14,806 bases of DNA, taken from Methylophaga sp. GTDB taxonomy: Bacteria; Pseudomonadota; Gammaproteobacteria; Nitrosococcales; Methylophagaceae. The stretch lies in the NCBI GenBank assembly GCA_014762585.1, contig JABURN010000206.1:1-14806 (forward strand), read 5' to 3'. A program made the position numbers and the translations under genes. Positions 2,094 through 13,435 of this stretch are shown piece by piece; the first letter of the stretch is position 1, and each line of letters begins with the position of its first letter. The notes below the pieces were generated by a model. It was not told where the DNA came from and did not search any database. It saw nothing but the letters and a program-made list of their open reading frames with translations.

Positions 2094-3239
2094 TTACTGT
2101 GCCATATTCTGGATAATTGCGTCACGGACCGATTCAAGGTTCGCGTCTACAGTCACCACGGCAGACGTGCTTTGTTTGATCGCGGTATCCGGATCTTTCA
2201 GGCCATGACCGGTCAAGGTGCAGACGATGGTGCTGCCTTCCGGAATTTTGCCGGATTTCACATCGCGCAAGGCACCGGCCAGTGAGGTCGCGGAGGCAGG
2301 TTCACAGAACACGCCTTCTTTTTCGGCCAACAGTTTCTGTGCTGCCAGAATTTCTTCATCGCTGCACTCATCGAACCAGCCACCGGATTCTTCTTTAACC
2401 TGCCAGGCTTTATCCCAGCTCTGCGGATGACCGATACGGATTGCAGTAGCCACGGTTTCCGGATCATCGACCATGTGACCACGCATAAACGGCGCGCTGC
2501 CGGAAGCCTGGTAGCCAATCATTTTCGGACGGTTACCGACAATGGCACCACCGGCGTATTTGCACTTGCCATCACAGTAAGCACAGGCATCGGTGACATG
2601 GTCACCGGAGTCGCAGGAATATTCGCAGTAACCAATCCAGTGAGCGGTGATATTACCGGCGTTACCGACTGGCAGGCAGTGGTAATCCGGCGCCCGGCCC
2701 AATTCTTCAACGATTTCGAAGGCTGCGGTTTTCTGGCCCTGCAGGCGATAAGGGTTAATCGAGTTCACGATGGTGACCGGCGCATGCTCAGCCACTTCCT
2801 TGACCAGGCGCATGCCTTCGTCAAAGTTGCCTTTGATTTGAATCACGGTGGCACCGTGCATCATCGCCTGTGCCAGTTTGCCCTGGGCGATTTTTCCATC
2901 AGGAATCAAGACGAATGCGGCAATGCCGGCACGGGCCGCATAGGCTGCCGCAGCCGCTGAAGTGTTACCGGTGGAGGCGCAGATAATCGCTTTACTGCCT
3001 TCTTCAACGGCTTTGGTCACGGCCATGGTCATACCACGGTCCTTGAATGAGCCGGTCGGGTTCAGACCCTCGTATTTGACGTAGATATCAACATCCTTAC
3101 CCAGCTCTTTGGCGATATGGTTGAGCTTGATAAGCGGTGTATTCCCCTCACCCAGGCTAATCAGGCGAGTGTCGTCATTGACCGGCAGCCGATCGCGATA
3201 GCGTTCAATCAGTCCAGTGTAACGGGGGCGAAATGACAT
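2094..3239 (-). CDS. thrC: Threonine synthase with a cysteine-rich insertion
   Basis: This PLP enzyme converts O-phospho-L-homoserine to L-threonine, the last step of the pathway. It has 381 residues; ATG 3237-3239 is preceded by GAGGA. Landmarks in order: [13 protein letters not shown] (28-40), the PLP lysine in [11 protein letters not shown] (Lys66), [14 protein letters not shown] (87-100), the PLP-phosphate loop [11 protein letters not shown] (191-201), and near the C-terminus [15 protein letters not shown] and [14 protein letters not shown]. It belongs to the short class of about 350 residues, not the long E. coli/yeast type. The surplus lies at 205-235, where an insertion carries Cys205, Cys209, Cys219, Cys222 and Cys226 (C-x3-C-x9-C-x2-C-x3-C) before the family sequence resumes at [15 protein letters not shown]. 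This could be a metal site; see findings. It lies 39 nt after hom and 5 nt before the membrane-protein gene. Confidence 0.96.
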
Positions 3240-6883: not shown

Positions 6884-7417
6884 ATGCGAATTGGCTATGC
6901 AAGAGAAGGTCGACAGGGTCAACCGCTGCAGATGCAAATCGATAAACTCAAGGACTGCAACACCGTCTTCAAAGAAAAAGCGGCGGGCGGCGACAAGCAA
7001 AAAACGCTGGATGCCTGTCTGGATGCCCTTCATAACGGCGATATCCTGGTTGTTACCCGCCTTGACCGGCTGGCAGACAACACTACAAAACTGGCACAAA
7101 TCGCTGAAAGGCTGCATAAACAGGGAATTGACCTGGTGGTTCTGGATCAGGCCATTGACACCACCAAAGATGCCAATGACGCCGCCCTGAGAGTGATGAC
7201 TGCGATCGCTGACCTGGACCAGACTGATTCTGGCACAAAATCAGCCACTGTCACCCCCATACACAATGGCAAAGCGCTTGCCAGTCATACCGGTAGTCAG
7301 CTGTCTAAAGAACAGATCGCTGAAATGCAGTACCGGATTGCCTGTGGTGAAGAAGTGTCTGAACTTTGTGATGAATACAACATCAGCATACCGACTTTTT
7401 ATCATTTGACGGACTAA
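6884..7417 (+). CDS. Serine-recombinase-like protein lacking catalytic residues, with Hin-type helix-turn-helix
   Basis: This encodes 177 residues; AAGGAG (6872-6877) sits 6 nt before ATG 6884. The N-terminal half follows the resolvase/invertase catalytic fold: MRIGYAR, then PLQMQIDKLKDC, LDALHNGDILVVTRLDRLADNT (48-67), and GIDLVVLDQAIDTT. The C-terminus QLSKEQIAEMQYRIACGEEVSELCDEYNISIPTFYHL (139-175) is a Hin-like helix-turn-helix. In active members the start reads YARVSTxxQ with the nucleophilic serine; here it is YAREGRQGQ, with Gly9 at that position. LDRLGRDT is LDRLADNT, so the second arginine is Asp65. The arginine expected before the first long helix is also absent. The long E helix, normally AIAEFER, breaks into a Thr/Ser-rich linker after AIADLDQ. 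The protein can probably bind DNA but not cut it. No inverted sites that would mark an invertible segment flank it. Confidence 0.8.
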   Translation: MRIGYAREGRQGQPLQMQIDKLKDCNTVFKEKAAGGDKQKTLDACLDALHNGDILVVTRLDRLADNTTKLAQIAERLHKQGIDLVVLDQAIDTTKDANDAALRVMTAIADLDQTDSGTKSATVTPIHNGKALASHTGSQLSKEQIAEMQYRIACGEEVSELCDEYNISIPTFYHLTD

Positions 7418-8856: not shown

Positions 8857-9888
8857 TCAGTGAAAGAAAATCACCGTGACGCCAACGGCGTAGCTCAGTA
8901 ACACCAGCACCCCCTCGAATCCGATATTACCGAGTCCATGCCGTTCGCGACGCAGCAGGCCCAGTAATAAAATACCCACCAGCAGAATATTCAACGCCAT
9001 CCAGAAAGCCAATGTGCCAGACACCGCCTGGTAAATCGAGCCGGGCCGGTAAGCCATATCAGACAACACCAGAAACAGTACATCGAAGGTATTGCCGCCA
9101 ATGATATCGCCCACAGCCAATGCCAGAGCCCCCCGACGCACCGCGGCAATCGCAATCACCAGTTCCGGTACTGAAGTCACAACCGCGGTGAATATGGTCC
9201 CGAATAATGTCTGACTCAGACCGGTATGGCGGGTAATCGCAATCCCGGTTTCAGCAATCAGCCAGCCGCTTACCGCGACTATCAGCGCCAAAAATAGAAA
9301 TGGCAACCATAAAGCCAGTCCGGCTGAAGCCATGTTCGCAGCGGGTGGTGAGGGTTGCTCCGGCCTGGTCTCACTGGTCTCTTTGGGCGACCACATCGGC
9401 ATCTTATGCGACTGGCGCAGTAAACGCAGGCCAAACAGATAAGCTGCCAGAATCACAAAAGACAGGATATCTATCGACCAGATGGTGATTCCCGGTCCTG
9501 ACATGGCGAGCATCGGCAGCGACAACATCACTACCAGTAACACGCCCTGCATCAGGTTTTCTTCCGATGCCGCCGCATGCTCAAGGTTGGCTTTGCGGTA
9601 GAGCATATCAGCAATCACCAGAAATGTGGTCTGCGCCGCAATGCCACCAATCGCATTACCGAAGGCGAGTTCTGCCGCACCTTCCCAGGCGGAGGTGACT
9701 GAGGTAATCGTACCTGCCAGTGAAGTGATAATGCCGAGAAACACCGCGCCCAGAATCGCCTGACCCAGGCCGGTGATATAGGCCAATTGTTCAGCCCGCG
9801 CGGTCAGCCACACACCACAGACGCCGACTACGGCACCGGCCGCGAGGAAGATGATGATATTGATGCCTAAACTGAGGTCGACAAACAT
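8857..9888 (-). CDS. CaCA-family cation antiporter with a degenerate first alpha repeat
   Basis: This encodes 343 residues; ATG 9886-9888 with GGAG 7 nt upstream. About ten hydrophobic segments fall in two halves around a hydrophilic Pro-rich loop (about 160-187). This matches the internally duplicated Na+/Ca2+ exchanger superfamily. The second alpha repeat is canonical: VVTSVPELVIAIAAVRRG (236-253) then GDIIGGNTFDVLF (260-272), with Glu242 at the ion-binding position. The first reads IITSLAGTITSVTSAWEG (53-70) then GNAIGGIAAQTTF (77-89), where the family's P-E is Ala58-Gly59. The fold and inner-membrane location are secure. Ca2+/Na+ or Ca2+/H+ exchange is the family's usual role, but loss of one of the two key acidic residues makes the substrate and stoichiometry uncertain. 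It stands apart from upstream ppc, behind 703 bp of repeats. Confidence 0.87.
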   Translation of the reverse strand: MFVDLSLGINIIIFLAAGAVVGVCGVWLTARAEQLAYITGLGQAILGAVFLGIITSLAGTITSVTSAWEGAAELAFGNAIGGIAAQTTFLVIADMLYRKANLEHAAASEENLMQGVLLVVMLSLPMLAMSGPGITIWSIDILSFVILAAYLFGLRLLRQSHKMPMWSPKETSETRPEQPSPPAANMASAGLALWLPFLFLALIVAVSGWLIAETGIAITRHTGLSQTLFGTIFTAVVTSVPELVIAIAAVRRGALALAVGDIIGGNTFDVLFLVLSDMAYRPGSIYQAVSGTLAFWMALNILLVGILLLGLLRRERHGLGNIGFEGVLVLLSYAVGVTVIFFH

Positions 9889-9921
9889 GTGACTCCGGTT
9901 TGGGTTGAGGTTTTGCTTTCT

Positions 9922-9951
9922 ATCCTAGCGGGTGGGGTTGGGGGTTGTCAT
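9922..9951 (-). promoter_or_regulatory. Candidate promoter of the antiporter gene
   Basis: On the minus strand ATGACA (-35, 9946-9951) and TAGGAT (-10, 9922-9927) are separated by 18 nt. Each matches consensus at about five and four bases. The predicted leader is about 27 nt and contains the GGAG ribosome binding site. The C-rich spacer is unusual. Confidence 0.35.
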
Positions 9952-10044
9952 TGTTGATGGTTTTTTTGAGATATTTACTGCTTCGTTGAAGCACCATCGA
10001 TTTGGTACTGACTCAGAATCTTGATTTCGCCTTGATGGCGAGTC
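9952..10044 (-). other. Non-coding segment between the antiporter promoter and the left structured element
   Basis: I see no gene. Two small hairpins occur: TGCTTC-GTT-GAAGCA around 9980-9994, and TCGCC-TTGAT-GGCGA at 10027-10041. A frame of 61 codons crossing this segment has no ribosome binding site and runs into the repeat, so it is not called. Confidence 0.4.
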
Positions 10045-10206
10045 AGGGAAATGCGTGCCCATTTCCCTAACAACCCTAGGGCGCCCCAATGTGCTGGCCT
10101 GCGGCTTCACTCGTCATTCTCTTTATTCAGGCGGTCGGCTAAAACTCGCTACGCTCAAACACTAGCCGCCCTCAGACCTGAATAAAGAGCATTCCTCGCC
10201 AGCACA
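10045..10206 (-). repeat. Left copy of a structured two-hairpin element (read on the minus strand)
   Basis: Read on the minus strand from 10206: tGTGCTGGC closes with GCCAGCACa (about 10198-10206 with 10089-10097). Inside, CCTGAATAAAGAG (10177-10189) and CTCTTTATTCAGG (10119-10131) form a perfect 13-bp helix. It is capped by a 6-bp helix, CGGCTA/TAGCCG (10136-10141 with 10163-10168), holding a 21-nt loop at 10142-10162. The loop reads GTGTTTGAGCG then TAGCGAGTTT on this strand. An invariant linker follows (10080-10111, ending GGGGCGCC), then a second hairpin AGGGAAATG-GGCACG-CATTTCCCT (10045-10068). The right copy at 10314-10484 has the same plan with different stems. No open reading frame of substance is present. 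Confidence 0.85.
10080..10111. repeat. Left arm of a perfect 32-bp inverted repeat
   Basis: These 32 bp are the exact reverse complement of 10410-10441. They begin GGCGCCCCAATG and end GGCTTCACT. The arms are 298 bp apart and form the linker common to the two structured elements, which points in opposite directions in the two copies. Confidence 0.95.
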
Positions 10207-10313
10207 AACGGGGGATGCAGGGAATATTAAATACAACACGTCATCGGCGATGCTTTAGACGGAATCAAAATACTTCAGCATGTCGAATCATGCTCCGATT
10301 TAGATATCCGCTT
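10207..10313. other. Spacer between the two inverted elements
   Basis: These 107 bp are AT-richer than the surroundings and carry no gene. One hairpin, AGCATG-TCGAAT-CATGCT (10277-10294), is visible. I see no direct repeats at its ends and nothing else recognisable. Confidence 0.5.
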
Positions 10314-10484
10314 ATGTGCTGACGAGTAGCGCAGGTTTATCTGGATTAGGATTGAGCAGTGTCTGAGCGTAGCGAGTTTTGCTCAATTCCCAGATAAACT
10401 GAGCAACGCAGTGAAGCCGCAGGCCAGCACATTGGGGCGCCTTTTGTTTGGTTCGTTTATTTTGGGCGAGCAAAATAAATGAAC
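10314..10484 (+). repeat. Right copy of the structured two-hairpin element (plus strand)
   Basis: ATGTGCTG (10314-10321) closes with CAGCACAT (10425-10432). Inside, GTTTATCTGG (10335-10344) pairs with CCAGATAAAC (10390-10399), then ATTGAGCA (10351-10358) with TGCTCAAT (10380-10387). The enclosed 21-nt loop (10359-10379) reads GTGTCTGAGCG then TAGCGAGTTT and differs from the left copy at one base. The invariant linker is at 10410-10441. Nine bases later a second hairpin, GTTCGTTTATTTTG-GGCGAG-CAAAATAAATGAAC (10451-10484), has 14 pairs including one G-T wobble. The stems share no obvious sequence with those of the left copy, while the loop, the linker and the overall plan are the same. Confidence 0.85.
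10410..10441. repeat. Right arm of the perfect 32-bp inverted repeat
   Basis: This is the exact reverse complement of 10080-10111, beginning AGTGAAGCCGC and ending TTGGGGCGCC. Identity stops abruptly at both ends: 10442 and 10409 no longer match. Confidence 0.95.
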
Positions 10485-10530
10485 GCCCGCGGCAGCGCTC
10501 CCAACTCCAGTTAAGAAACCCAGTTCCGGG

Positions 10531-10581
10531 AGATTGCCACGGCATAACGGCCTCGCAATGACGCATTGCAAAGTCCGGGCA
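10531..10581. repeat. Palindromic interspersed-repeat-like sequence just downstream of ppc
   Basis: ATTGC (10533-10537) pairs with GCAAT (10555-10559), with inner GGC/GCC, and GCAATG-ACG-CATTGC lies at about 10555-10569. On the minus strand it reads CATTGCGAGG…GTGGCAATCTC, resembling the CATTGCGAG…GCAATC palindromes scattered in many proteobacterial genomes (from memory, not searched). It starts about 10 nt past the ppc stop and could stabilise or end the ppc transcript. No strong U-tract follows. The bases between 10485 and 10530 show nothing I can name. Confidence 0.5.
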
Positions 10582-10591
10582 GATATAAGAC

Positions 10592-13435
10592 CTAACCGGT
10601 ATTCCGCATCCCCGCCGAAATCGCACTAATCGTCCGTAATAATGGATCCAGCCAGCGCTGACGATCATCCTCTGACTGAGCACTATCGCGATAACGCTGC
10701 AATAACAGAATCTGCATATAGTTAATCGGATCCAGATAAGGCTCGCGCCGGCGCAGCGAGCTTTTCAGAGAAGGCAGTTCCGCCAGCAAAGAATCCGCTT
10801 CCACCACCAGCAGTACCTGTTTGACCGTCTTGTGGTATTCCGCCGCAATCAGCTCGAACACCTGCTGACCCTGGAAAGCATCTTCACAGAGCGCAGCGTA
10901 ACGGCGGGCAATATTCATATCCGCCTTGGACAGAGACATCTGGGTGTTACTCAGCAAAGCACGGAAAAATGGCCACTGTCTGACCATCTGCCGCAGAATC
11001 GCAATCTTGTCTTCATCGCCCTGATGCCAGGCTTCCAGCGCCGTGCCGATGCCATACCAGGCAGGTAATGTGTGGCGAGACTGGGCCCAGGAAAACACCC
11101 AACCGATGGCACGCACCGAGGATTTGGAACGGTCACCGGGTTTGCGGTGGGATGGCCGCGAGCCGATATTCATCATGCCGATCTCGGTAACCGGACAGAC
11201 CTCGTAGAAATAATCCAGAAAGCCCGGTGTATCTTCGGTCAGCTTGCGGTAGCTGGCTTCACCGGTTTTGGTCAGGTTCTGCATAATATCGAGATAGGCC
11301 GGTTCCACCTGGCCGATTTCGGTGACCAGACTCCGCGACGCTTTCATCAGGCCGGAGACGCCCATGCCCAGTTCATAAGCCGCGGTCTCGACGTTGCCGT
11401 ATTTGAATGACAGAACCTCGCCCTGCTCGGTGAATTTAATCTGGCCATGCACAGTACCCATCGGCTGCGACAAAATCGCATCGTGGGTCGGGCCGCCGCC
11501 GCGACCGATGGTGCCACCACGGCCATGAAACATGCGGCATTCGACTTCATGCTGCTGGGTCAGACGGGTGATTTTCTTCTGCGCCTGGAACAGGTTCCAG
11601 CCGGAGGCAAGAATACCGCCGTCCTTACAGGAATCCGAGTAGCCTAGCATCACTTCCTGCAGATTACCGGAGTCTGACAGTAAACGGCGGTAAACCGGAT
11701 TTTCCAGCAAAGAGGACATCACCGGCTCGATATGGCCCAAATCCTCAATGGTCTCAAACAGTGGCGCGACGCGGACATGACAGAAACTGTCGCCATTGTC
11801 ATTGAAGCCGCATAATCCGGCAAAGCGCGCCAATGTCAGCACTTCCAGAATATGACTGGCTTCATGCGTCATCGAAATCACATAACTGCCGAAAGCCTTG
11901 CTGCTGACCTCACTGTGCAGGCGTGTCATCAGGCTGAAGACATTAAGCACTTCCTGATTATCGGAGTTCAGTGTCGGCAAGGCCGGCAGACTGGGCTGTG
12001 ACAATAGCTGGGTGAGCAGCTGTTGGCGCCCTGCTTCATCCAGATTGAGGTAATCCTGTTCAAGATCGGTCGCTTTCAACACCTCGGCCAGGGTCTCGCT
12101 ATGACGGGTCGATTCCTGGCGGATATCCAGATGATAGAGATAAAAGCCGAAGGTTTCGACCAGACGGATGAGATCATTTAGCTCGGCACCGGCGAGTTCC
12201 TTGTCACCGTTTTCCACCAGCGACTCGTAAATAAGATTGAGATCGGCCAGCAGTTCATCTTCATTGGCATAGGCCAGACCCAGCGCGGTGGGTTCCAGGT
12301 CCGGGCGGAAATACTGCTGCAACAGGCGCAGATTGTCTTCCAGCCGGTGGCGCATCATGTAGAGCTTGCGGCGGTAGGGCTCATTCAGGAAACGATCGGG
12401 CTTGGCGCGGAAGGCCCCGGCATAGCGCTTTTCAGACTCGGCGATATCTTCCGCCAGCGCATCGCTGATCCAGCACAAAGGCTGGGAGTGGGTCAGGATA
12501 TAACTCAGCTTGGTCACATCCTCCAGATAACGGCGAATCACGGTGCGCTTTTGCAATTGAATCGCCATTTCAGTGGTTTCAGCGGTGACATATGGATTGC
12601 CATCGCGATCACCACCAATCCAGGAGCCGAACTTCACAAAGCCAGGGACTTTAAAGGCCTGGCCGGCCTCTATCTCGTCGCTGTAAACGCGACGGATTGC
12701 ATTCTCCAGGTTACGGTAAGTGCGCGGCACCGCGTCGAACAGACTGACATTGAAGTAATACAGGCCGTTTTTAATTTCATCGCGTACGGTCGGTTTGACC
12801 GCCCGCACTTCATCGGTGGACCACAACAGTTGAATCTGGCGCTTGATCTCCTTGCGAGTGCGCTCTTCGTCAAAAGCAGTAAGCGGCTCATTGGTCAGTT
12901 GTTCATCGAGCAGAAAGATGCGACGCAGAATTTCCATCACTGTGCGCCGTTTGGACTCGGTCGGATGTGCGGTGAACACCGGCATATAGACCAGCGAGTC
13001 GAGTAAGGGCTGTAACTGGGCCAGCGACACACCCGCCTGCTTGAACTGACGCAGGGTATCCAGATAGGAACCTTCCCACAGGTCGCCACCGTTACGCAGT
13101 TGCGTCATCCGGTTGTGATAATTAAAGGCCTCTTCTGCCGTGTTGAGCAGACTGAAATACATGCTGAAGGCGCGAATCACCTCGCGTAGCGTGGTTTCAT
13201 CCAGTGTGTTGAGAAAACCCAGCAGCTCGGTTCGCAGACCGGCGTTATCGTCCTTGCGCAGATTGATAAAACCTTTGCGCAGCCGTTCCACTGTCTCAAA
13301 CACTTCGCGCCCGGCGCGTTCATCAATCACCTCGCCCAGAATATGACCGAGAAAACGCACATGCTGGCGCAGTTCCTTGTCGCTGAGCAAAGACAATTTT
13401 TCGACTGTACTGAGTACAGGCTGATAGTCAGTCAT
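10592..13435 (-). CDS. ppc: Phosphoenolpyruvate carboxylase
   Basis: This enzyme carboxylates phosphoenolpyruvate with bicarbonate to oxaloacetate, replenishing the citric acid cycle and feeding the aspartate family (substrate for the hom/thrC branch here). It has 947 residues, somewhat longer than the E. coli enzyme (883), and is intact. Landmarks: FTAHPTESKRRTV with catalytic His157, SWIGGDRDGNPYVT (271-284), YLYHLDIRQES (432-442), MLGYSDSCKDGG (596-607), the active-site glycine loop MFHGRGGTIGRGGGPTH (635-651), EIGMMNIGSRPSHRKP, and the conserved C-terminal end GMRNTG. That terminus contributes to the aspartate/malate allosteric site in characterised enzymes. ATG 13433-13435 lies 3 nt after the glgA stop with only a weak ribosome binding site, so translation probably couples to glgA. 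Downstream are the repeat elements of 10045-10581. Confidence 0.98.
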   Translation of the reverse strand: MTDYQPVLSTVEKLSLLSDKELRQHVRFLGHILGEVIDERAGREVFETVERLRKGFINLRKDDNAGLRTELLGFLNTLDETTLREVIRAFSMYFSLLNTAEEAFNYHNRMTQLRNGGDLWEGSYLDTLRQFKQAGVSLAQLQPLLDSLVYMPVFTAHPTESKRRTVMEILRRIFLLDEQLTNEPLTAFDEERTRKEIKRQIQLLWSTDEVRAVKPTVRDEIKNGLYYFNVSLFDAVPRTYRNLENAIRRVYSDEIEAGQAFKVPGFVKFGSWIGGDRDGNPYVTAETTEMAIQLQKRTVIRRYLEDVTKLSYILTHSQPLCWISDALAEDIAESEKRYAGAFRAKPDRFLNEPYRRKLYMMRHRLEDNLRLLQQYFRPDLEPTALGLAYANEDELLADLNLIYESLVENGDKELAGAELNDLIRLVETFGFYLYHLDIRQESTRHSETLAEVLKATDLEQDYLNLDEAGRQQLLTQLLSQPSLPALPTLNSDNQEVLNVFSLMTRLHSEVSSKAFGSYVISMTHEASHILEVLTLARFAGLCGFNDNGDSFCHVRVAPLFETIEDLGHIEPVMSSLLENPVYRRLLSDSGNLQEVMLGYSDSCKDGGILASGWNLFQAQKKITRLTQQHEVECRMFHGRGGTIGRGGGPTHDAILSQPMGTVHGQIKFTEQGEVLSFKYGNVETAAYELGMGVSGLMKASRSLVTEIGQVEPAYLDIMQNLTKTGEASYRKLTEDTPGFLDYFYEVCPVTEIGMMNIGSRPSHRKPGDRSKSSVRAIGWVFSWAQSRHTLPAWYGIGTALEAWHQGDEDKIAILRQMVRQWPFFRALLSNTQMSLSKADMNIARRYAALCEDAFQGQQVFELIAAEYHKTVKQVLLVVEADSLLAELPSLKSSLRRREPYLDPINYMQILLLQRYRDSAQSEDDRQRWLDPLLRTISAISAGMRNTG

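Follow-up and report, generated by a model that had tools for sequence, protein, structure and literature searches.

Flanked by the end of the gene for PEP carboxylase (minus strand, 10592-13435) and by the beginning of one for a sodium/calcium exchanger (minus strand, 8857-9888), one copy of a compound interspersed repeat of the Methylophaga genome lies in the window (the whole 14,806-nucleotide stretch of Methylophaga DNA that was analysed). Two long inverted arms lie within a closing helix, and small hairpins stand at either end. The first-pass annotation had placed a structured element at 10045-10484; the element is indeed present, and its extent, about 10027 to about 10497, exceeds those ends on both sides. 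Its parts are as follows.

10027..10041, no strand assigned: left terminal hairpin TCGCC-TTGAT-GGCGA, the start of the element, found by eye at the left end in most of 63 rows
10045..10068, no strand assigned: left inner hairpin AGGGAAATG/CATTTCCCT, seen by eye in most of the 63 rows and as an inverted pair in the repeat search
10080..10087, plus: closing helix, 5′ side, GGCGCCCC, within the 41-nt outer inverted repeat at 10071-10111
10091..10205, tip-bearing strand minus: arm 1, a long irregular hairpin
10119..10189, minus: arm 1 helices, lower 10119-10131/10177-10189 and upper 10136-10141/10163-10168
10145..10157, minus: arm 1 tip TGAGCGTAGCGAG, GNA mini-hairpin motif
10206..10315, no strand assigned: spacer of 110 bases between the arms, variable in length and sequence among copies
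10316..10430, tip-bearing strand plus: arm 2, a long irregular hairpin
10335..10399, plus: arm 2 helices, lower 10335-10344/10390-10399 and upper 10351-10358/10380-10387, with an internal loop between them; covariation over 19 arms
10364..10376, plus: arm 2 tip TGAGCGTAGCGAG, GNA mini-hairpin motif
10434..10441, plus: closing helix, 3′ side, GGGGCGCC, within the outer repeat at 10410-10450
10451..10484, no strand assigned: right inner hairpin GTTCGTTTATTTTG/CAAAATAAATGAAC, an inverted pair; probe matches at query 396-461 in other copies
10485..10497, no strand assigned: right terminus GCCCGCGGCAGCG, by eye; some other copies end TCGCC..GGCGAAA

The core of the two arms had been read correctly from the start. 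The two 21-nt loops, GTGTTTGAGCGTAGCGAGTTT on the minus strand at 10142-10162 and GTGTCTGAGCGTAGCGAGTTT on the plus strand at 10359-10379, differ by one base; the helices of arm 1 are CTCTTTATTCAGG (10119-10131 with 10177-10189) and CGGCTA (10136-10141 with 10163-10168), and those of arm 2 are GTTTATCTGG (10335-10344 with 10390-10399) and ATTGAGCA (10351-10358 with 10380-10387). The arm-closing helix shared by both arms pairs GTGCTGGC at 10091-10098 with GCCAGCAC at 10198-10205, and GTGCTGAC at 10316-10323 with GCCAGCAC at 10423-10430 (one A.C mismatch). The repeat search recovered the 41-nt outer inverted repeat at 90%, the 23-nt loop pair at 96% and also the stem of arm 1. Judged by eye, the stems at the left end are compensated across copies, both in the terminal hairpin (TCGCC/GGCGA, TCGAC/GTCGA, TCGCA/TGCGA) and in the inner one (GGGAAATG, GGGATTTG, GGGGAATG, GGGGCTTG); two of the 63 rows of left ends (L136, L150) resemble coding sequence. 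The two sides of the outer closing helix likewise change together in other copies, as seen by eye and without a count.

Folded as RNA, the 440 nt at the core of the element give z = -12.7, which none of 100 shuffles equalled. The lowest-energy RNA fold is, however, a single giant hairpin pairing the left half with the right half rather than separate arms; the two-arm form is supported by the copies and not by the RNA fold of the whole element. Folded alone as DNA, the tip-bearing strands of the arms give z = -5.0 (0 of 200 shuffles) and -3.4 (1 of 200), and their complements also fold, with z = -4.3 and -2.6. No promoter-like site is predicted inside the element. Intrinsic terminators combine a GC-rich hairpin with a T run after it; four terminator-like sites lie in 9880-10620, compared with a shuffle mean of 0.8. 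The first, at 10500-10481 on the minus strand (that of ppc), includes the right terminus; a second stands at the base of arm 2, a third in the spacer, and the fourth outside the element.

What had been described as a 21-nt loop carries, as covariation suggests, a conserved 2-bp GNA mini-hairpin motif. The conserved unit is TGA-(G/C)C-GNA-G(C/G)-GAG, and the full tip reads TGTY-TGA-(G/C)C-GNA-G(C/G)-GAG-TT. In Methylophaga the closing pair covaries from G-C to C-G. Among 175 sites that fit TGANNGNANNGAG with at least six flanking pairs, 156 are GC/GC, 14 are CC/GG and five take other forms (one GC/AC, four apparently unrelated). All 14 CC/GG sites are found in Methylophaga, in A-, B- and C-type arms, so that the double change, which preserves (G/C)C-GNA-G(C/G), arose or spread in at least three arm families. 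Sites fitting the same pattern without a six-pair stem comprise 81 GC/GC and a scatter of other forms; a one-sided closing pair occurs once in Methylophaga (L152). A listing over the class (Gammaproteobacteria) gave CC/GC 9 (the genome of L152 included), GC/GG 4 and CC/GG 3, about chance level. None of the eight of these loci that were examined (six one-sided, two CC/GG) has a stem above shuffles, and they accordingly look like chance sites that neither help nor hurt the case. The closing-pair covariation is confined to Methylophaga.

As RNA, a GNA mini-hairpin of the same sequence is far less stable than as DNA. Unusual stability is described for mini-hairpins of DNA that have a GNA loop on two or more G-C pairs, with GCGAAGC melting at 78 °C (PMC4686876), and the mirror argument, in which UUCG loops are taken to favour RNA, has been used for another motif (PMC2864571). 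Applied to single sequences, energy models draw the GNA mini-hairpin in one of six tip-strand arms as DNA and in one of four as RNA.

The stems that present this tip are far from constant. Seven arm families have at least four members, and their stems differ; arms with a nested insert were removed before the families were built, and nine arms in seven families of fewer than four members are left uncounted. Most families follow a common plan, namely a lower helix, the internal loop GG-(ATNAR)/(N)-CC, an upper helix of 8-9 pairs and TGTY-TGAGCGNAGCGAG-TT. Two alignments were drawn from the two largest of the seven. In the first (A1, 30 arms of one family) 97.5% of 1020 cells are paired and 18 of 34 pairs have changed on both sides; in the second (A2, 19 arms, arm 2 of the window included) the figures are 96.2% of 397 cells and 13 of 21 pairs. 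In both families, 49 arms together, pairing, both-side changes and the covariation score were each reached by none of 500 shuffles, bearing in mind that the structures were named from the same families and hence favoured over slid controls, and that related copies are non-independent. The number of further pair types in A2 was reached by 97 of 500. Conserved tips on freely changing but paired stems had been read in the first-pass annotation as the mark of selection on a folded strand, with compensatory changes expected in alignments; these changes, and the many copies in related genomes, bear the proposal out.

Mismatches indicate which strand is under selection. On the tip-bearing strand of the seven families (103 arms), with structures defined by Watson-Crick matches only, a rule that is blind to strand, there are 95 G.T, 9 A.C and 71 other mismatch cells, or 47, 9 and 44 as distinct events. 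A cruder pairwise count of G.T versus A.C gave 82 versus 23 in the genus and 79 versus 34 elsewhere. Given this excess of G.T over A.C, the tip-bearing strand appears to be the selected one. Among 20 arms from Clostridium, 18 of 49 pairs show compensatory change and the strand asymmetry is weak (G.T 8, A.C 5); these copies are otherwise alike, with stems that are hypervariable and mostly paired.

A 461-base probe found 13 matches on five contigs of the window's own genome, self-matches included. It matched 16 of 28 genomes (the window's own among them), all 16 within the genus, of which 17 were searched. As the first-pass annotation had anticipated, further copies are plentiful in related genomes: the exact tip TGAGCGNAGCGAGTT is present in 20 of 24 Methylophaga genomes, on many stem families, and each of the other four has at least one weaker probe match. 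Copy number and sites differ between near relatives. Allowing two mismatches, 147 tip sites, a few of them plain coding matches (e.g. L131, L137, L143), were counted in 85 sequences (84 fetched regions and the window). Many Methylophaga copies show a minus tip followed by a plus tip, mostly about 150-240 apart.

The tip together with stems recurs in other Pseudomonadota, in Clostridia, in Bacteroidota and in Patescibacteria. Among the matches listed, stem-bearing loci belong to Marinobacter, Variovorax, Herminiimonas, Sedimenticola, Clostridia, Flavobacteriales, Patescibacteria and a Desulfobacula. Chance hits included, the exact tip occurs in 26 of 398 genomes of the phylum (Pseudomonadota), and 50 of 369 genomes of the class match a pattern relaxed to G or C at the closing pair. 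Exact-tip copies number 69 in Clostridium sp. KNHs205, 64 in Sedimenticola, 33 in a Bacillota MAG, 26 in Marinobacter lipolyticus and 7 in a Patescibacteria MAG; the remaining genomes of the 18 counted hold 1 to 21 each. Whole elements with similar end hairpins were found in other families (L163, L380, L381, L385, L388), and the Clostridium copies examined are nearly all single-armed, in an element of about 300 bp. A 14-letter pattern matches large collections by chance, so that single hits prove little, and stems and the TGTY prefix are more telling. In the broad scan of named loci, 80 of 119 stretches were listed; of the 81 arms in them, 38 surpass every one of 40 shuffles, 56 have TGTY in front and 36 combine both, so that chance or weak pairing may account for a considerable share of the named hits. 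The same shuffle test was passed by 33 of 53 arms in class and phylum loci, 71 of 97 in the genus and 8 of 13 in viral stretches. A reversed-pattern control was left unused as non-independent, because the reversed pattern is itself contained in any site where N is A and a T stands in front. Pattern CTGTYTGAGCGNAGCGAGTT occurs in only 14 stretches among 2.9 million viral contigs, and a viral origin was rejected on this ground. Two plasmid records match the Variovorax copy; a Stenotrophomonas copy had no match in plasmids, phages or E. coli, and the window's copy none in phages or plasmids.

With respect to genes, 76 Methylophaga arm groups lie between convergent genes in 34 cases, tandem genes in 32 and divergent genes in 4, with 6 at an edge; several of these rows share one site, and genes were called as longest ORFs. 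In other genomes, 71 arms that stand alone and exceed a stem score were classified, 14 paired arms being left out; a few may be coding matches. The counts are 23 antisense-antisense, 14 sense-sense, 16 convergent, 8 divergent and 10 edge. The 21 Clostridium arms give 5, 5, 8 and 3 in the same order, and nine arms of the Bacillota MAG 4 antisense and 5 sense. There is no preference for the sense strand of genes, which argues against a mere mRNA element.

Arms and neighbouring genes turn over at one site, although transposition is not proven thereby. The gap between polA and xerD (gene names by eye; recombinase matches occur there) is occupied by an element in 12 genomes, as judged from matching flanks (L011, L076, L081, L090, L099, L104, L113, L117, L129, L135, L140, L145), and arms and orientation differ there even where flanks are 98-100% identical (G007 versus G028). 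In the gap between bfr and glmU (names by eye), different genes stand beside elements in three genomes: T5orf172, an AraC-type gene (by eye) and a phosphonate-type ABC operon with a 2-hydroxyacid dehydrogenase in G007, radical SAM and others in G034, and an FRG domain in G014. This region (L414, L416, L417, L418) is a hotspot in which the accessory genes between or beside elements differ in near relatives. Some element sites thus coincide with places of gene gain and loss. Downstream (3′) of ppc, among the matches listed, a tip is present in G000, G004, G005 and G013, and the 850 bases examined hold none in G002, G028 and others. Empty-site alleles had been proposed as a further mark of the element; no clean empty-site pair with a target duplication was found for the element as a whole.

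As to chromosomal position, most elements of G006, G009, G014 and G028 are found to a single side of dnaA, at some 65-650 kb from it. Exceptions are a G014 match on a different contig and two copies of G028, near 2.39 Mb, on the opposite side; some of the clustered sites are common by descent. Clustering at the terminus was considered and rejected, the dnaA positions indicating the origin side.

No partner enzyme was found among the candidates searched. Y1_Tnp matches occur in 15 of 24 genomes (14 over the cut-off), and none in the carriers G000, G001, G002, G004, G005, G006 and G007, three of which are less than 90% complete; four Y1 loci examined contain no tip. Y1_Tnp does not track the elements and was rejected as partner. 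The suggestion of a transposon-associated guide RNA found no support, Y1_Tnp having no match in seven carriers and no such gene being present among the window ORFs examined. The integron integrase (TIGR02249) exceeds the cut-off in 6 of 24 genomes, is absent at that cut-off from carriers such as G007, G028 and G034, and in G006 and G014 lies outside the element cluster; it was rejected for the same lack of tracking. Three ORFs overlapping elements gave no match in Pfam or NCBIfam, and one protein search with such an ORF returned two matches; the chance ORFs of the element probably clutter annotations. An autonomous version was likewise rejected: in L188 and L260, where two tips stand about 1.6 kb from each other, ordinary genes lie between them. 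In L384 the tips bracket a nirD-like gene (by eye). In L380 (1161-2108), the arms of an otherwise complete element are separated by an ORF of 315 aa that matches no family above its cut-off.

Nor did the element match a named family. The absence of a recognisable family, noted at the outset, was confirmed by an Rfam search of the window, with no match at the gathering score and weak matches only below it (E-value mode). The open-access literature, searched by sequence, peptide and topic, yielded no paper naming the element, and the passages searched in a Methylophaga genome paper (PMC5918138) make no mention of it. The structure is real and selected, and represents a large repeat family without an Rfam match that was not met in the open-access papers searched.

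Among known systems, the element works most like REPINs. REPs and REPINs are described as chromosomal, intergenic, inverted doublets that fold as single strands, and REP recognition in E. coli as strand-specific, on a hairpin with a required bulge (PMC3116915, PMC3733652, PMC8266576). Like the REPINs or REP-BIMEs, GTAG- and CGTC-tagged and mobilised by RAYT/TnpAREP, the element is a chromosomal, intergenic inverted doublet that would fold as a single strand, and many Methylophaga copies show the two inverted palindromes with a spacer. However, REPs measure 20-50 nt, whereas the arms are about 115 nt or more and the element about 470 bp, with a conserved tip on drifting stems. The GTAG/CGTC foot tag is not common to all arm families: A- and E-type arms have GAGTAG near the foot, and the B-, C- and D-type and Clostridium arms examined lack it (by eye). 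A RAYT (Y1 transposase) gene flanked by the repeats was not seen either, seven carriers having no Y1_Tnp match and the four Y1 loci examined no tip. Failing on tag, size and RAYT, the element is not classed as a REPIN.

Strand-specific recognition of single strands is also known from IS200/IS605, whose relatives are excised and inserted as single strands by an HUH enzyme. The ends of these insertion sequences, and MITEs, resemble the element in being non-coding with terminal hairpins, but in the loci examined no transposase gene is flanked by element ends. The attC-like DNA motif OTH-22-1 is reported from several phyla and from Archaea, with 1887 representatives (PMC8632094). Like attC and OTH-22-1, the element would be a structured single-strand DNA; the integron integrase does not track it, and no RYYYAAC or GTTRRRY boxes are visible by eye at the Methylophaga and Clostridium arm bases examined. 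OTH-22-1 was compared by description only, so that some copies could be identical with it. Candidate structured RNAs such as STAXI (PMC2864571) and PBC-28-3 are likewise covarying or repeated structured elements; PBC-28-3, however, precedes ahpC-like genes in the direction of the gene, while the direction of the element is indifferent and its tip is of the DNA-stable kind.

An action at the RNA level deserves to be weighed. Read-through transcripts might fold the tip-bearing arm, which would end or protect mRNA 3′ ends or bind an RNA-binding protein. The excess of G.T over A.C would suit a folded RNA, Methylophaga elements seem to avoid promoters (4 divergent cases in 76 groups), and a terminator-like match (10500-10481) stands at the right end in the direction of ppc. 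We nevertheless consider this explanation rather unlikely, as arms beside tandem genes face antisense at least about as often as sense, the element lacks a promoter-like site, and no Rfam family matches at the gathering score. Moreover, the CC/GG tip would break the UUUG-CGAG pairing of some RNA folds, yet it keeps the GNA closing pair. Of the earlier proposal of an uncharacterised structured RNA family, the lack of an Rfam match stands; indifferent gene orientation and a DNA-type tip speak against RNA. Decidedly improbable, in our estimate, is a non-mobile DNA site kept by selection on the cell, for instance for priming, topology or domain borders. Rarity in viral contigs, near-absence from plasmids and phages in limited searches, lasting presence at polA-xerD and bfr-glmU and the position of most elements on one side of dnaA in four genomes, exceptions aside, would agree with a service to the host; the patchy distribution (4 of 24 Methylophaga genomes without the exact tip, only 50 of 369 class genomes with the relaxed one) and the variation of copy number and sites among near relatives would not.

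Strand-specific hairpins with paired variable stems also recall attC, and the element could be a folded single-strand site for cassette exchange by a tyrosine recombinase. The different genes at bfr-glmU in G007, G014 and G034 and the ORF between the arms in L380 point in this direction. Tips of attC sites vary, however, and that of the element is conserved; in addition, the integrase does not exceed the cut-off in several carriers and lies outside the cluster in two genomes, and RYYYAAC is not visible by eye at the arm starts examined, which leaves this idea little probability. Finally, compensation might arise without selection if template switching in palindromes recopied one arm from the other, as the hypervariable yet mostly paired stems of similar Clostridium copies could suggest. 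Such recopying would leave G.T and A.C equal, contrary to what Methylophaga shows, and does not explain a fixed tip and a fixed internal loop; we regard it as extremely improbable.

The explanation that we favour, and to which we would give an even chance, is that these interspersed DNA repeats of the chromosome form a large family without a name, REPIN-like, whose members fold as single-stranded DNA and are moved or kept by a putative enzyme. Each arm would be a strand-specific site that folds when the DNA is single-stranded. A hairpin-binding enzyme acting in trans may recognise the tip together with the fixed internal loop and the motif at the base, and may either mobilise or copy the element or maintain it where it is. 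The helices would merely space these motifs apart, so that their letters could drift as long as pairing is kept, and two opposite-facing arms would provide each DNA strand with one correctly formed tip. The data show the anatomy, the many copies, the covariation, the asymmetry between strands, the indifference to the direction of genes and the change of arms and neighbouring genes at one site; that the element acts as single-stranded DNA, that an enzyme reads it and that it transposes at all is what we infer here. The non-autonomous single-strand transposing element put forward in the first-pass annotation is thereby the preferred reading, although neither a clean target duplication nor a partner enzyme was found. 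It is tempting to speculate further, if with considerable doubt, that the TGTY-TGA-(G/C)C-GNA-G(C/G)-GAG-TT tip defines a pan-bacterial class of single-stranded-DNA structures, in at least Pseudomonadota, Bacillota, Bacteroidota and Patescibacteria, which would be read by one conserved putative strand-specific enzyme and might in some genomes mark the borders of exchangeable gene islets. A folded DNA motif with compensated drifting stems across phyla would imply a common machinery reading single-stranded hairpins.

Several further structures were encountered. A second structured insert of about 70 bp (CAAATTTGTC..GATGCCACGAATCA) lies inside the tip loops of many arms (L012, L086, L130 and others); it is present in G014 (L140) and absent at the same place in G034 (L145), with TCA on both sides, and the insert seems to target hairpin tips. 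A different intergenic repeat that forms hairpins, similar to GTTGGGTTTCGTTCCTCAACCCAAC, adjoins elements in L414, L415 and L420. Elsewhere in the window, 2094-3239 encodes a threonine-synthase-like protein (PALP match) with a cysteine-rich stretch that appears unusual, and 6884-7417 a 177-aa protein whose sole Pfam match is the resolvase N-terminal domain.
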